A program made the position numbers and the translations under genes. The notes under the pieces were generated by a model. It had not been told where the DNA came from. It saw only the letters and a list, made by a program, of their open reading frames with translations, and made no database searches. 40,147 nucleotides of DNA from Kiritimatiellia bacterium (GTDB lineage: Bacteria > Verrucomicrobiota > Kiritimatiellia > RFP12 > UBA1067): NCBI GenBank assembly GCA_017418445.1, contig JAFONM010000024.1, forward strand, positions 1-40,147. The letters are read 5' to 3'. Position 1 is the stretch's first letter, and every line of letters starts with the position of its first letter. Below are positions 5,489 to 11,800 of the stretch, piece after piece.

Positions 5489-7224
5489 GCGAATCAGACA
5501 CCTCAAGGCACTTTCTCAGGCAGTGGATCGAAAAGGACGTCGCCGACGGCAGGACCGGCGGCAAGGTCGTGACGCGGTTTCCGCCGGAACCCAACGGCTA
5601 CATCCACATCGGACACGCGAAGGCGGTGTGCGTGGACTTCGGAATGGCCGCGCTCTTCGGCGGCGAGTGCCACCTCCGTCTCGACGACACGAACCCGGCG
5701 AAGGAGTCCGACGAATACGCCGAGAACATCAAGAAGGACATCAACTGGCTCGGCTTCCAGTGGTCCGGCGAAGGCGACTCCGGCGAGCCCGGCTTCTACA
5801 ACGCGTCGAACATGTTCGACAGGATGTACGAGATTGCGGAGAATCTCGTCAAGGCCGGCCAGGCATACTGCTGCAACCTCACGCAGGACGAGTGGAAGGT
5901 CTACCGCGGAGTCCCAGAGAAGCCCGGCACGCCCAGTCCCTCGCGCGACACGACTCCCGAGCGCAACCTCCGGATCTTCCGCGAGATGCGGGACGGGAAG
6001 TACGCGGACGGCGAGTGGTGCCTTCGCGCGAAGATCGACATGGCCTCGCCCAACATCCACTTCCGCGATCCGGTCATCTACAGGATCCGCCACGTCGCCC
6101 ACTACCACCTCGGCGACAAGTGGTGCATATATCCGATGTACGACTTCGCGCATCCGATCGAGGACGCTCTCGAGGGCGTCACTCACTCGATGTGCACGCT
6201 CGAGTTCGAGGTGCACCGTCCGCTGTACGACTGGGTCGTCGACAGGCTCGACGAGATGGGGATGCTCCCAGTCCGAAACGGAGTCAGGATCCGCACGCAG
6301 CAGCGCGAGTTCGCTCGCCTCAACATCACCTACACCGTGATGTCGAAGCGGCTGCTCCTGCAGATGGTGAAGGACGGACATGTCGCGGGATGGGACGATC
6401 CGAGGATGCCGACCGTCTGCGGAATGCGCCGCCGCGGCTATACGCCGGCCGCAATCCGCGAGTTCTGCGACAGGGTCGGCGTCTCCAAGGTGGAGAGCGA
6501 GTCCGATCCGGCCCTCCTCGAGTGGTGCGTCCGCGAGGATCTCAACAGGACGGCGACGCGCCGCATGGCGGTCCTCGATCCGGTGAAGGTCGTCATCGAC
6601 AACTTCGAGGGAACGCGCGAGGTGGAACTCCAGAACAATCCGCTCGACGAGACGGCGGGAACGCGCAGGGTGGGCTTCTCGCGCGAGATCTGGATCGACC
6701 GCGCGGACTTCCGCGAGGTCCCTGAGAAGAAGTTCTTCCGCATGGCGCCGGGACAGGAGGTCCGCCTCCGCGGAGCCTGCATCTTCAGGTGCGAGAGCTT
6801 CGTGAGGGACGCGGACGGCGTCGTCGCGGAGATCCACGGGACATGGGACGAGAGCTCCTGGGGCGGCAACGCGGCCGACGGCAGGAAGGTGAAGGGGACG
6901 ATCCACTGGGTAGACTGCGCGACCGGCGCGAAGGCCGAGGTGAGGCTCTACGACAGGCTCTTCACGGAGAAGGATCCGATGAAGGACGGCGCCGACAACT
7001 TCCTCAAGTACCTGAATCCCGACTCGCTCAAGGTCGTCGAGGCGTACGTCGAGCCGGCGCTCGCCAGGGCGAAGCCGGGCGAGCACTTTCAGTTCGAGAG
7101 GACCGGCTACTTCGTCGTCGACGAGCCGAACAACCTTCCCGACGGCGAACCGGCGGCGGCTGATTCGTCCAGGCTCGTCTTCAACCGCACCGTGACGCTG
7201 AAGGATTCCTACAAGCCGCTGTGA
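5485..7224 (+). CDS. glnS: Glutaminyl-tRNA synthetase
   Basis: Class I aminoacyl-tRNA synthetase charging tRNA-Gln; 579 residues against about 554 in E. coli. The HIGH motif is at residues 41-44 within 'PPEPNGYIHIGHAK'. The KMSKS-type loop appears as 'VMSKRLL' near residue 286. GlnRS-specific stretches include 'LRLDDTNPAKESDEYAENIK', 'YDFAHPIEDALEGVTHSMCTLEFE' and 'DDPRMPTVCGMRRRGY'. The C-terminal half is the two-barrel anticodon-binding region. Direct glutaminylation means a GatCAB route is not needed for tRNA-Gln, although GatCAB could exist elsewhere. The start ATG overlaps the preceding stop and the stop overlaps the GTG of the Sir2 gene. Expression could come both from the eno operon and from its own -10. 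Confidence 0.97.
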   Translation: MSESDTSRHFLRQWIEKDVADGRTGGKVVTRFPPEPNGYIHIGHAKAVCVDFGMAALFGGECHLRLDDTNPAKESDEYAENIKKDINWLGFQWSGEGDSGEPGFYNASNMFDRMYEIAENLVKAGQAYCCNLTQDEWKVYRGVPEKPGTPSPSRDTTPERNLRIFREMRDGKYADGEWCLRAKIDMASPNIHFRDPVIYRIRHVAHYHLGDKWCIYPMYDFAHPIEDALEGVTHSMCTLEFEVHRPLYDWVVDRLDEMGMLPVRNGVRIRTQQREFARLNITYTVMSKRLLLQMVKDGHVAGWDDPRMPTVCGMRRRGYTPAAIREFCDRVGVSKVESESDPALLEWCVREDLNRTATRRMAVLDPVKVVIDNFEGTREVELQNNPLDETAGTRRVGFSREIWIDRADFREVPEKKFFRMAPGQEVRLRGACIFRCESFVRDADGVVAEIHGTWDESSWGGNAADGRKVKGTIHWVDCATGAKAEVRLYDRLFTEKDPMKDGADNFLKYLNPDSLKVVEAYVEPALARAKPGEHFQFERTGYFVVDEPNNLPDGEPAAADSSRLVFNRTVTLKDSYKPL

Positions 7225-7976
7225 ACAGGATGCTCGATCTCATAGGGAAGGCGGACAGGATCGTCGCCTTCACCGGCGCCGGCGTGTCGACGCTGTGCGG
7301 AGTCCCGGACTTTCGCGGTCCGCAGGGGCTCTACAGGCAGAAGGACGCCGAGCGCATCTTCGACATCGACTGGTTCGAACGCGATCCGTCGATCTACTAC
7401 CGCGGATGCCGCGAGCTGGTGTACGGACTCAAGGACGTCAAGCCGGGTCCCGTGCACCGCGCGCTCAAGAAGCTCGAGGACGACGGCAGGCTCATCGGCG
7501 TCATCACGCAGAACATCGACATGCTCCACCAGAAGGCCGGATCCTCGAATGTGTGGGAGATCCACGGGACGCCGGCAGTCCACCATTGCCGCCGTTGCGG
7601 AGCCGCGAGGACGTTCGCCGAAATCTGCGCGATGATCGAGGCCGGAGAGAAGTCGCTCGAGGCCGCGGGCCGCGCCGGCGAGACGTTCGTTCCGCGCTGC
7701 GGATGCGGCGGAGTCTTCAAGCCCGACATCACCTTTTTCGGCGAGGCGCTCCCCGAGGCGGCGTTCATGTCCGCGCGCGAGGCGGCACTGGAGGCCGACC
7801 TCATGCTCGTCCTGGGCACCTCGCTCACGGTCTATCCTGCGGCCGGGCTCCCCGAGCTTGCGCTTCGCCGCGGCGGAAAGGTCGCGATAGTGAACGGACA
7901 GCCTACGATGCTCGACGACCATGCCGCGGCGATCGGCCGCGACCTTGCGGAATTCGCCTCCGCAGTGCTCGGTTAG
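7221..7976 (+). CDS. Sir2-family NAD-dependent protein deacylase
   Basis: The protein has 251 residues. It removes acyl groups from lysine using NAD+, yielding nicotinamide and O-acyl-ADP-ribose. NAD-binding motifs are 'FTGAGVSTLCGVPDFRG' (residues about 17-33) and 'ITQNIDMLH'; the catalytic histidine is in 'EIHGT'. Zinc ligands are the pair in 'CRRCG' and a second pair in 'RCGCGG', with the last two cysteines only one residue apart. 'FFGEALP' and 'LVLGTSLTVYPAAGLP' are typical of bacterial CobB/SrtN-type sirtuins. The GTG start overlaps the glnS stop (GTGA); an internal ATG at 7230 is an alternative costing three residues. The residue before 'GVPDFRG' is Cys instead of the usual Ser, which is unlikely to matter. 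Whether it prefers acetyl or succinyl groups cannot be told. Confidence 0.93.
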   Translation: MNRMLDLIGKADRIVAFTGAGVSTLCGVPDFRGPQGLYRQKDAERIFDIDWFERDPSIYYRGCRELVYGLKDVKPGPVHRALKKLEDDGRLIGVITQNIDMLHQKAGSSNVWEIHGTPAVHHCRRCGAARTFAEICAMIEAGEKSLEAAGRAGETFVPRCGCGGVFKPDITFFGEALPEAAFMSAREAALEADLMLVLGTSLTVYPAAGLPELALRRGGKVAIVNGQPTMLDDHAAAIGRDLAEFASAVLG

Positions 7977-7990
7977 GGCGTTTTTACGCG

Positions 7991-8052
7991 TCTTAAGGGA
8001 ATCTTAAGTAAATCTTAAGCGAATCTTAATTGAATCTTAAGAAAATCTTAAG
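7991..8052 (+). repeat. Six TCTTAAG boxes at exact 11-bp spacing upstream of comM
   Basis: TCTTAAG (fourth copy TCTTAAT) begins at 7991, 8002, 8013, 8024, 8035 and 8046, always 11 bp apart. The three or four intervening bases are mostly AA-rich. The core CTTAAG is itself palindromic. The array lies in the 142-bp gap between the Sir2 gene and comM and ends 22 bp before the comM -10, so the last box reaches the -35 region. A looser TCTTTTC follows at 8059. Eleven-bp iteration is the known arrangement for OmpR/PhoB-type response-regulator sites; that assignment here is inference. Confidence 0.8.
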
Positions 8053-8070
8053 ACTAAATCTTTTCTTTTC

Positions 8071-8079
8071 TGGCATAAT
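8071..8079 (+). promoter_or_regulatory. Extended -10 element for comM
   Basis: TGG followed by CATAAT at 8074-8079, giving a leader of about 35 nt before the comM ATG at 8119. No recognisable -35 exists; the place where it should be is occupied by the end of the 11-bp repeat array, as expected of an activator-dependent promoter. Confidence 0.55.
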
Positions 8080-8118: not shown

Positions 8119-9672
8119 ATGCTTGCAAGATGCTATTCTGGTTCGATAAACGGCGTCGAGGCCTCGACGATCGAGATAGAGGTGTATGCCGCGAAGTCCA
8201 CCAGTTCTTTTGCGATAGTCGGTCTTCCTGACACTGCGGTCAAGGAAGCGAAGGACCGCGTCTCGACCGCGCTCAAGAATTCCGGCTATCGTTCCAAGGA
8301 CGAATATTCCGTCACCGTGAACCTCGCTCCGGCGGACGTGCGAAAGGAGGGTCCGATCTACGACCTTCCGATCGCGGTCTGCCTCCTCAAGGCGACGCAG
8401 CGCCTCCGCACGGAATCCCTCGATGACTACGCGCTTGTCGGCGAACTTTCCCTTTCGGGGCGTGTCCGCCGCGTTCGCGGAATCCTGCCGATCGTGATGG
8501 AGATGAAGCGCATCGGGAAGCGCGCGATAATCGTCCCCGAGGAGAACGTCGACGAGGCGAGCGTCGTGGAGGGAATCGACGTGGTCCCGGTGAAGACTCT
8601 TCGCGAGGCGGCGCAGTATCTTTCGGGAGAGACGTTCATCGAGCCGAGATTCACCGATCTTGCGGACCTCGTCGCGAAGGATCGCGACTCGGGAGACGAC
8701 TTCGCGGACGTGAAGGGTCAGCAGACGGCGAAGCGCGCGCTCGAGATAGCGGTGTCCGGCGGCCACAATGTACTTATGATCGGCTCTCCAGGCTCGGGCA
8801 AGACGATGCTCGCGAGGCGGGTCCCGTCCATTCTTCCGCCGATGTCCGTCGAGGAGGCGCTCGAAGTTTCGCGCATACACTCCGTCGCCGGACGCGAGAA
8901 AGGCGGAGGAATGTTCGTGACGACGCGTCCCTTCCGTGCGCCGCACCACACGGTCAGCTCCATAGGGCTCCTCGGCGGCGGGACGCATCCCGTCCCCGGC
9001 GAGGTCTCGCTCGCGCATCGCGGGGTTCTCTTCCTCGACGAGTTCGCGGAGTTCCCGCGCGCCGCCCTCGAGGTCCTCCGCCAGCCTCTCGAGGACGGAC
9101 ATGTCGGCGTTTCGCGCGCGGCCGCCGCGTGCGACTTCCCTTCGCGCTTCATGCTCATAGCGGCGATGAATCCGTGTCCCTGCGGATACTCCATGGATCC
9201 GTCGCACGAGTGCAGCTGCAATCCGGCTCAGGTGAAAAAGTACCAGCACCGCATATCTGGTCCGCTCCTCGACCGCATAGACATCCAGGTCGCGGTCCGC
9301 GCCGTTCCCCCGAAGGATCTCGACGGACTCGCCAACGGCGAGCCGAGCGCGGCGATTCGCGCGCGGGTCGTCGCCGCGCGCGAGATCCAGCGGAGGCGAT
9401 ACGCGGGGGTGCATGGCGTAGTCGTCAACGCGGACGTCCCGAGCCGCGACCTCAGGGACGTGTGCAGGCTCTCGTCCGTCGCGGCGCAGAGGATGCGCGA
9501 ATGCCTCGAAAGGCTCAACATGTCCGCCCGCGCGTACGACCGCGTGCTGCGGGTTTCGCGGACGATCGCGGACCTTGCCGGGAAGGAGGACGTCGACGAC
9601 GAGTGCGTCCTCGAGGCGGCGACGTGCCGCGAACTGGACAAGGAGTCCGGAACCGGCGAAATCTGGACGTGA
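8119..9672 (+). CDS. comM: ComM/YifB-family AAA+ ATPase (Mg-chelatase-like)
   Basis: The protein has 517 residues, normal length. ComM is a hexameric helicase that promotes branch migration during natural transformation in Vibrio and Haemophilus; related YifB proteins are widespread. The N-terminal Lon/S5-like domain contains 'SSFAIVGLPDTAVKEAKDRV' and 'VTVNLAPADVRKEGPIYDLP'. The Walker A motif GSPGSGKT is at residues 222-229 and Walker B is 'GVLFLDEFAEF'. The cysteine cluster 'CPCGY...CSC' precedes 'RISGPLLDRIDIQ', and the C-terminal Mg-chelatase lid domain is complete. A good ribosome site, AAAGAGGTG at 8106-8114, precedes the ATG. It heads a run containing an unrecognised gene, yraN and recA, all consistent with DNA recombination, and is preceded by the 11-bp repeat array. 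Confidence 0.93.
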   Translation: MLARCYSGSINGVEASTIEIEVYAAKSTSSFAIVGLPDTAVKEAKDRVSTALKNSGYRSKDEYSVTVNLAPADVRKEGPIYDLPIAVCLLKATQRLRTESLDDYALVGELSLSGRVRRVRGILPIVMEMKRIGKRAIIVPEENVDEASVVEGIDVVPVKTLREAAQYLSGETFIEPRFTDLADLVAKDRDSGDDFADVKGQQTAKRALEIAVSGGHNVLMIGSPGSGKTMLARRVPSILPPMSVEEALEVSRIHSVAGREKGGGMFVTTRPFRAPHHTVSSIGLLGGGTHPVPGEVSLAHRGVLFLDEFAEFPRAALEVLRQPLEDGHVGVSRAAAACDFPSRFMLIAAMNPCPCGYSMDPSHECSCNPAQVKKYQHRISGPLLDRIDIQVAVRAVPPKDLDGLANGEPSAAIRARVVAAREIQRRRYAGVHGVVVNADVPSRDLRDVCRLSSVAAQRMRECLERLNMSARAYDRVLRVSRTIADLAGKEDVDDECVLEAATCRELDKESGTGEIWT

Positions 9673-9713: not shown

Positions 9714-10313
9714 ATGAACGAAACCACCAGAACCACGCAGGCGGACTCCGAGACCCGCCGATTCCGGCCGTCGTTCGCCATCTTCAAGGCGAACGGAAAG
9801 GGGACGGGATGCGCGCTGAAGCTCGAGCTCCATCCCGCGCACGACACGACGGACGGCTCGATATGGGCCACGTTCGCGAACCAGCTCACGATCGGAGACA
9901 GGCGGGGTCCGAACCCGACCTACGCGCGCTTCGACTGGGACAACCGCATCTGCGTGAAGCTTGACTTCAACGACCTCACGAAGATGCTGCAGGTGTTCCG
10001 AGGCGAGTGCGAGTCGATCGGGGACGGCAAGGGGCTCTGCCACAGGTCTCCGCGCGGGATGACGGTCATCGGGCTCAAGCACTTCGTCGAGCCTTGCTGC
10101 GGCTATTCCTTCGAGGTGCACAGGACGGGCCCGAACGGAGGCGAGGAATCGCATGCGCACATCTTCATCCTGCCCAACGAGGCGCTCGGCCTCTCCGCGG
10201 CGATCGAGGGTTCGCTCGGCGTCGTCTGCTTCGGGATTCCCGAAGTGATCGAGCACGACACTTCGTCGTACCGCAGCGACGTGAAGGAGATGCGCAATGC
10301 CGCGGTCGCCTGA
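9714..10313 (+). CDS. Unrecognised protein between comM and recA; possible Whirly/PC4-type ssDNA binder
   Basis: The protein has 199 residues. The ATG at 9714 has AAAGGA 8 nt upstream; the longer open frame running back into comM is a shadow. After a short polar tail the sequence looks like alternating beta strands with a late helix: 'FAIFKANGKGTGCALKLEL', 'ARFDWDNRICVKLDFNDLTKML', 'GMTVIGLKHFVEPCCGYSFEV' and 'HIFILPNEALGLSAAIEG'. The layout of a 'K.NGKG.G.AL' opening, a basic DNA-size core and a C-terminal helix recalls small Whirly/PC4-like single-strand binders seen in some bacteria; I cannot confirm this without a profile search. No catalytic motif, signal peptide or membrane segment is visible. 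Sharing an operon with ComM, YraN and RecA supports a role in DNA handling. Its end overlaps yraN by 17 nt. Confidence 0.65.
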   Translation: MNETTRTTQADSETRRFRPSFAIFKANGKGTGCALKLELHPAHDTTDGSIWATFANQLTIGDRRGPNPTYARFDWDNRICVKLDFNDLTKMLQVFRGECESIGDGKGLCHRSPRGMTVIGLKHFVEPCCGYSFEVHRTGPNGGEESHAHIFILPNEALGLSAAIEGSLGVVCFGIPEVIEHDTSSYRSDVKEMRNAAVA

Positions 10314-10740
10314 CGAGGAGGAGAACGTCGGCGTCTCCCACGGCAGGTGGGGCGAGGAGGTCGCCGTCGCGGAGCTCCGCGTGGAGGGGTTCGAGATCGT
10401 CGAGCGGAACGTACATCCATGCAAGGACGACAGGCGCATCGAACTCGACGTGATCGCCTACGATCCGCGGCGCGACCTTCTCGTCTTCGTGGAGGTGAAG
10501 CAGCACAAGGCGAGGAGCGCCAGGCAGCGGCGTCTGAGGAGCCTCGACAGGCGGAAGCGGATGCTCGTCGGGCGCGGATGCCGCGCGTGGCTCCTCCGGC
10601 ACCACTGGCAGGGCGCCTACCGCTTCGACGTCATCGAGGTGTACGGGACTCCGGAATCCGGACGCCCCGCCGAGGTGGACCACGTGGAGCACGTCAGGCT
10701 CTTCAAGAGCCGCGAACAGTTCGTAGACTGGGAAAACTGA
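10297..10740 (+). CDS. YraN/UPF0102 family nuclease-like protein
   Basis: The protein has 147 residues and resembles a compact PD-(D/E)XK endonuclease fold. Visible family features are '[25 protein letters not shown]', the acidic pair in '[10 protein letters not shown]' and the '[10 protein letters not shown]' strand carrying the E-x-K of the active site. The usual 'GEIDLIA' reads 'IELDVIA' here, keeping the catalytic Asp. The ATG overlaps the preceding gene by 17 nt. An N-terminal extension of about 15 residues precedes the conserved part, so a later start is possible, but no better-placed ATG exists. The cellular role of this widespread family is poorly established; structural similarity to Holliday-junction resolvases and its position next to recA suggest work on recombination intermediates. 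Confidence 0.88.
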
Positions 10741-10762: not shown

Positions 10763-11800
10763 ATGTCAGGATCATTCATACTCAAGAAGGTCGGCTCGGC
10801 GCTCGAGGAGGCGCTGGGCGCCATAAGGAAGGAGTTCGGCGAGATGTCGATCATGCGCCTCGGAGACGAGGCGCGCGGCGACGTCGAGGTCATCCCGACG
10901 GGCGCGCTGGCGCTGGACCTCGCGCTCGGCGTCGGAGGACTCCCCAAGGGACGCATCGTCGAACTCTACGGGCACGAATCGTCCGGCAAGACGACGCTCG
11001 CGCTCCATGCGGTCGCGAGCGCGCAGAAGGCCGGCGGGACCGCGGCGTTCATAGACGCCGAGCATGCGCTCGATCCGGGATACGCGAGGAAGATCGGGGT
11101 TGACCTCGACTCGCTCGTCGTCTCGCAGCCCTCGAGCGGCGAGGAGGCGCTCGCGATCTGCGAGGAGCTCGTCAAGTCCGGCGCGGTGGACATCGTCGTC
11201 GTCGACTCCGTCGCTGCGCTGACGCCGCAGGCGGAAATCGACGGCGCGATGGGCGACAGCCACGTGGGGCTGCAGGCGCGCCTCATGTCGCAGGCGATGC
11301 GCAAGCTCACGGCGGCGATCGCACGCACGAAGACGCTCTGCATCTTCACGAACCAGGTGCGCGAGAAGATAGGCGTCATGTTCGGGAATCCAGAGACGAC
11401 CCCCGGCGGAAAGGCGCTCAAGTTCTACGCAACGTGCCGGCTAAACGTCCAGCGGATCGGCGCGATAAAGAACTCGTCGGGCGAGGTGGTCGGCAACAGG
11501 ACGCGCGTAAAGGTCGTCAAGAACAAGGTCGCGCCGCCGTTCACCGAAGCGGAGTTCGACATCCTCTACTCGTGCGGAATCTCGCGCGAGGGGTCCGTCG
11601 TCGACGCGGCGCTCGCCCGCGGCGTGATGGAGAAGCGCGGGAGCTGGCTGAGCTACGGGTCGAAGCAGATCGCGCAGGGGAGCCTTGCCGCGATCGAGTA
11701 TCTCAAGGGGCATCCAGACGTCCTCGACGAGATAGTCCGCAAGGTGAAGGAGGCCCCGGCTGCGCCTGTGTCCGCCAGGAAATCCCTGAGAGCCGCCTGA
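10763..11800 (+). CDS. recA: Recombinase RecA
   Basis: The protein has 345 residues. It forms ATP-dependent filaments on single-stranded DNA and drives strand exchange and LexA-type autocleavage. The Walker A motif is GHESSGKTT from residue 70; the family norm is GPESSGKTT, so a His replaces the Pro. Other landmarks are intact: '[25 protein letters not shown]', '[19 protein letters not shown]', loop L1 '[20 protein letters not shown]', '[29 protein letters not shown]' (L2) and '[11 protein letters not shown]'. The C-terminus is short and basic ('SARKSLRAA') without the acidic tail of many RecA proteins. AGGAG at 10752-10756 is a strong ribosome site. No SOS box is evident upstream, so transcription probably comes from comM. 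Confidence 0.98.

Follow-up and report, generated by a model that had tools for sequence, protein, structure and literature searches.

A phased box array before comM and comEC is a putative OmpR-family operator of a competence regulon in Kiritimatiellae

Results

The window analyzed here, a stretch of 40,147 nucleotides, comes from a Kiritimatiellae MAG of 1.39 Mb in 77 contigs that is 65% complete (G000). An operon of four genes on the forward strand begins with comM (8119 to 9672), which encodes a YifB/ComM family Mg-chelatase-like AAA ATPase (NCBIfam TIGR00368, 592 bits; Pfam Mg_chelatase and ChlI) whose nearest named relatives are in Kiritimatiellae MAGs from ruminant guts. The second gene (9714 to 10313) is kept downstream of comM throughout the genus. 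It is followed by a yraN-like gene (10297 to 10740), which several YraN-family NCBIfam models match below their cut-offs (best E 2.8e-15), and by recA (10763 to 11800; TIGR02012, 506 bits). Upstream, also on the forward strand, lies a gene for a Sir2-family deacetylase (7221 to 7976).

Pfam and PDB sequence searches gave no credible match for the product of the second gene. Its AlphaFold model, built from two sequences, has a pLDDT of 50; at E<=0.001, Foldseek returned 19 matches to this model, all of them Whirly or MRP1/MRP2 chains (best E 4.7e-7). The product is hence predicted to be a Whirly-fold protein of the single-stranded DNA (ssDNA)-binding type, an assignment of low confidence because it rests on a poor model and Foldseek. 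Whirly ssDNA-binding proteins are otherwise known chiefly in plants and in trypanosome mitochondria. Such a protein would suit the ComM-RecA context.

Between the Sir2 gene, which ends 15 bp before it, and comM there is an array of six 7-bp boxes separated by 4-bp spacers (7991 to 8052, forward strand), a putative cooperative operator for a response regulator (RR). The boxes start at 7991, 8002, 8013, 8024, 8035, and 8046, with an 11-bp step throughout. The initial annotation had described six TCTTAAG boxes in exact 11-bp phase; the spacing held, but the copies are not all identical, since five read TCTTAAG and box 4 reads TCTTAAT. When the window was searched for TCTTAAG-N4-TCTTAAG with at most 3 mismatches, all 10 matches fell within the array. 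Shuffled versions of the window gave a mean of 0.61 matches and a maximum of 4, never 10. We conclude that the comM array did not arise by chance.

The promoter-proximal box (8046 to 8052, forward strand) ends exactly 21 bp before the -10 element CATAAT (8074 to 8079). This element is preceded by TG to form an extended -10, TGG-CATAAT (8071 to 8079, forward strand), without a recognizable -35. The last box abuts the position where a -35 would be expected, just as the initial annotation had placed it. No other 11-bp array on either strand of the window is set 21 bp before an extended -10, and the CTTAAG arrays of congeners likewise have 21 bp between the last box and the -10. As CTTAAG is a palindrome, the orientation of the boxes cannot be read from the array in the window.

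Does the array occur elsewhere in the genome? A genome-wide search of G000 for the pair CTTAAG-N4-TCTTAAG, with at most 1 mismatch, found the comM and comEC promoters only. The comEC gene, which encodes the DNA-uptake channel, was identified by its Pfam Competence (ComEC/Rec2) domain; its array has four boxes and stands exactly 21 bp before a -10 element, TATCAT, that also carries the TG. The genes for the channel, the transformation helicase, and the recombinase share the array through comEC and comM-recA, as a natural competence regulon would, and the second array supports the suggestion that the comM operon is a DNA-uptake and recombination unit.

For comparison across the genus we used 61 genomes, in which 55 comM and 55 comEC regions were scored against dinucleotide shuffles. 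At p<=0.01, an array with an extended -10 was significant in 43 of the 55 comM regions and 21 of the 55 comEC regions; the other 12 and 34, respectively, fell short of this threshold. When periods from 7 to 17 bp were scanned, box triples with at least 11 of 12 positions matching occurred in 28 of 55 regions at period 11 and in 0 to 1 at the other periods. TG precedes the -10 in 41 of the 43 significant comM promoters, in which the -35 position is random (mean match, 0.6 of 6). In the sister genus, clear 11-bp arrays were present in 4 of the 7 comM regions tested.

The boxes themselves vary by species. In several species of the genus, CTTAAG arrays stand before comM or comEC; in relatives that lack CTTAAG, the equivalent place holds an 11-bp array built from a different word: CTTTAG, CGTAAG, CGTAAC, TGTCAC, CGACCC, and others. 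In many species whose box is not palindromic, the most upstream copy is inverted, a common layout being one inverted box followed by three direct boxes. The initial annotation had tied its reading to the persistence of the array in close relatives. The exact TCTTAAG array is missing from many of them, but the 11-bp layout and the 21-bp spacing are kept with another box. Across the genus, then, the promoter architecture appears to have been kept while the box and, as described below, the recognition helix of the regulator changed together.

Two further observations concern comM regions in the genus. Short TCTAGAA or CCTAGAA repeats are clustered upstream of comM or next to an array at L153 (G027) and L126 (G061). 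On contig C85 of G061, comM is apparently split: the promoter and N-terminus (L130) lie at 81 kb, and the remainder, which has an internal stop, lies about 38 kb away, at 120 kb (L170).

In the 21 genomes in which both promoters are significant, comM and comEC boxes are closer within than between genomes (P=5e-5), and this P value was unchanged when near-copies were removed, leaving 13 genomes. Strict, universal identity of the two boxes is nonetheless ruled out: they differ in G024, in G080 (whose comEC array is below significance), and in one clade, where comM has GACCC and comEC has ATTCAT or ATTCAC. More than one regulator may be at work in these genomes. For the RRs of the GACCC clade (L182, L185 to L187, L192, L194, and L195), the split between comM and comEC boxes suggests two regulators.

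A candidate regulator is found beside comM. In eight congeners (G034, G018, G064, G024, G077, G079, G067, and G028), a gene for an OmpR-type RR with Response_reg and Trans_reg_C domains adjoins comM; in a ninth, G032, it does so by partial match only. In all nine the RR gene lies upstream of comM, where the window has the Sir2 gene, and in G077 the gene order is comEC, RR, comM. Elsewhere in the genus the RR gene sits amid unrelated genes, and no adjoining kinase gene was seen in the five such loci examined. The acidic pocket, phospho-acceptor Asp, Thr/Ser, and Lys of the receiver are intact in all of the RRs, and the usual Lys-Pro is Lys-Ala, Lys-Ser, or Lys-Thr. The cognate RRs have a median identity of only 43%, whereas comM is 64 to 81% identical to that of the window. 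For the RR of G081, the nearest solved structure by sequence is RpaA. The proposal of a dedicated regulator thus gains a candidate, linked to comM in congeners and with a recognition helix that covaries with the box.

A search of G000, a 65%-complete assembly, did not turn up the cognate RR. The two nearest matches in this genome look like PhoB-type paralogs and were rejected. The one on contig C27, 35% identical to the G034 RR, has a PhoB-like helix and groups with paralogs outside the competence-RR clade (100/100); the one on contig C71 also has a PhoB-like helix and was judged on the helix alone. The DNA-binding domain of this PhoB-like regulator (L317) is apparently about 15 residues short before the recognition helix.

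We compared recognition helices with box words, fixing the register from the CTTAAG promoters and the 21-bp distance and numbering residues as in PhoB. At RR position 201, Asn accompanies T at box base 2 in 9 of 9 cases and Arg accompanies G in 16 of 21. At position 196, Tyr accompanies G at box base 6 in 15 of 15 and Arg accompanies C in 16 of 20. Among all RR columns scanned, position 201, which is homologous to PhoB Arg201, was the best predictor of base 2 (leave-one-out, 0.97), while position 196 was among the leaders for base 6 (leave-one-out, 0.86) and not first. In PhoB, each half-site has a guanine bonded by Arg201 (PMC3973317). That position 201 predicts base 2 suggests, indirectly, that the specificity of the regulator matches the site.

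Several points bear on how far this correspondence can be taken. The pairing of helix and box positions was spotted before it was tested. In phylogenetically independent comparisons for base 2, both of the 2 supported pairs agreed, which is too few changes for significance; because independent changes on the RR tree are few, phylogeny may still be a partial source of the apparent covariation. With the 21-bp register fixed, the code fails for the TTTCAACG genomes. Both helix types occur in G080, each in one of its two RRs, and its boxes are likewise of two matching types.

Might the array instead be bound by some other DNA-binding protein, such as a repressor, a nucleoid protein, or another two-component regulator, the RR near comM being incidental? 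The location of the RR is variable, and in G000 it is not beside comM; the genomes in which comM and comEC boxes differ imply more than one factor. Against this stand the linkage in nine congeners, the covariation of box and helix at the counterpart of PhoB Arg201, the fit of the two G080 regulators to its two box types, and a 7+4 tandem layout that is typical of the OmpR family (PMC4832192). We regard such a protein as an unlikely occupant of the array. Linkage and covariation argue rather for the PhoB/OmpR-type layout that the initial annotation had recognized.

The initial annotation had also raised intrinsic bending, by which helically phased A/T steps would curve the promoter DNA. The boxes of the window do hold TTAA, phased near one helical turn. 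However, CGACCC, CGCAAC, CCGGAC, and ATCAGC boxes in congeners retain the 11-bp phase and the 21-bp distance. What is conserved is spacing and not A/T content. Because GC-rich boxes keep the phase, we reject bending as highly improbable.

Do other genes have this promoter architecture? We ran a strict scan for it over 0.9 Mb of sequence from the genus and family, covering loci picked for comM, comEC, a regulator, or a box match. It gave 76 matches (duplicates included), versus 0 in shuffles, and within these chosen loci the targets were comM, comEC, and a few others only: ORF6N genes (several in G064, one in G009), RhuM-like and 23S-IVP-like (four-helix-bundle) genes, IS200-like Y1 transposase genes (G061 and G012), and a DUF2851 gene (G082). 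With looser settings, a second scan also picked out Y1 transposases of G010 and G027, as well as one further gene in G024. Genome-wide box-pair searches in G077, G022, G073, and G081 found mainly comM and comEC.

The dispersed ORF6N genes (L131 and L133 to L136 in G064, L009 in G009) have near-identical promoters, starts, and ends; their middles differ, as if domains had been exchanged. The Y1 transposase genes (L356 in G010, L139 and L140 in G012, L342 in G027, and L129 in G061) each carry the array of the local species, each with another box word. Y1 transposases act on ssDNA, the form in which DNA is imported during transformation.

That the array is a selfish or incidental tandem repeat, nonregulatory and spread by slippage, deserves scarcely any credence: near-identical promoter cassettes do precede several ORF6N genes in G064, but the spacers differ between units, the distance to the -10 is fixed, and box words turn over while the architecture stays.

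Discussion

The array has the features of an OmpR/PhoB operator: tandem direct repeats roughly 7 bp long and 4 bp apart, a fixed distance to the -10, and, in congeners though not in G000, a linked RR with REC and winged-helix domains. Taking together the array, the promoter geometry, the sharing of both by comM and comEC, the linkage of the RR in congeners, and the helix-box covariation, all of them read from sequence, we consider it very probable that an orphan OmpR/PhoB-type RR uses the array as its operator, cooperatively activating a competence regulon, and that the specificity of this RR is rapidly diverging.

We infer that such an RR is present in this strain and responds to a signal. 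Once phosphorylated, it would bind the boxes head to tail along one face of the DNA, each 11-bp turn taking one protomer. The last protomer would sit beside the vacant -35 position, and RNA polymerase would be recruited to the extended -10, so that the effect would be activation and not repression. Switching on comM, the Whirly-fold protein gene, yraN, and recA, together with the distant comEC, would amount to a DNA uptake and recombination regulon.

CtrA sites are TTAA-based, and the CTTAAG array contains TTAA-N7-TTAA, which we take to be the CtrA motif. In Rhodobacterales, CtrA controls comEC, comM, and comF (PMC6473078; Brimacombe et al. 2015 via PMC10883770). The likeness lies in an OmpR-family RR over comEC and comM and, in CTTAAG genomes only, in TTAA-N7-TTAA before both genes. 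Unlike the CtrA system, the one proposed here has a six-box array with an extended -10, an orphan RR with an unrelated helix of the YVHVSNL type, a box that varies by species, and recA in the operon. The site is not conserved as a CtrA-like one, the box being non-TTAA in most congeners, and in the search of solved structures the only CtrA chain matched the receiver domain alone.

In Synechococcus elongatus, dusk and competence genes have an OmpR-type master regulator, RpaA (PMC7125226). Here, too, an OmpR-type regulator would govern competence genes; RpaA is a global clock output, whereas the sites described here are few and centered on comM and comEC. ComK, ComX/SigX, and Sxy-CRP co-induce genes for DNA uptake and recombination, recA included in some Firmicutes. 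Their regulator families and operators are unrelated to those proposed here.

In PhoB promoters, about 10 bp separate the last box from the -10. Mycobacterium tuberculosis PhoP, of the OmpR family, recognizes strict 7+4 bp direct repeats and binds more tightly when there are three and four of them (PMC4832192). The 7-bp motif with a 4-bp spacer and the head-to-tail cooperative binding, proposed here from sequence, resemble PhoB and PhoP, and it is the PhoB Arg201 position that varies (PMC3973317, PMC4832192). The present promoters depart from both in having three to six boxes (with one upstream copy inverted in many species), 21 bp from the last box to the -10, and rapid turnover of the box. 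OmpR-family control of com genes is thus already known from CtrA and RpaA; the new elements are an architecture that stays fixed while its word changes, the recA link, and the lineage. Our searches, as far as they reached, brought up no paper on competence in Kiritimatiellae or Verrucomicrobia.

A wider reading, which we offer tentatively and hold to be slightly more doubtful than probable, is that one operator architecture has been kept across the genus, with 11-bp comM arrays in the sister genus as well, while its word was rewritten many times with matching changes at two helix residues, and that mobile or selfish-looking genes in several species (IS200-like Y1 transposases, ORF6N, RhuM, and 23S-IVP-like genes) carry a copy of the local competence promoter. 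If this is true, elements that act on imported ssDNA would be expressed in competent cells alone.

A shared promoter geometry, combined with differing words and matching helix changes in dozens of species, would form a natural series for the co-change of transcription factor and operator, one that may be used for reading OmpR-family specificity from sequence. With so fixed an array layout, competence regulons may be found by layout instead of by motif. If our reading of the array as an RR operator is right, it predicts when the uncultured gut bacteria of this lineage take up DNA.
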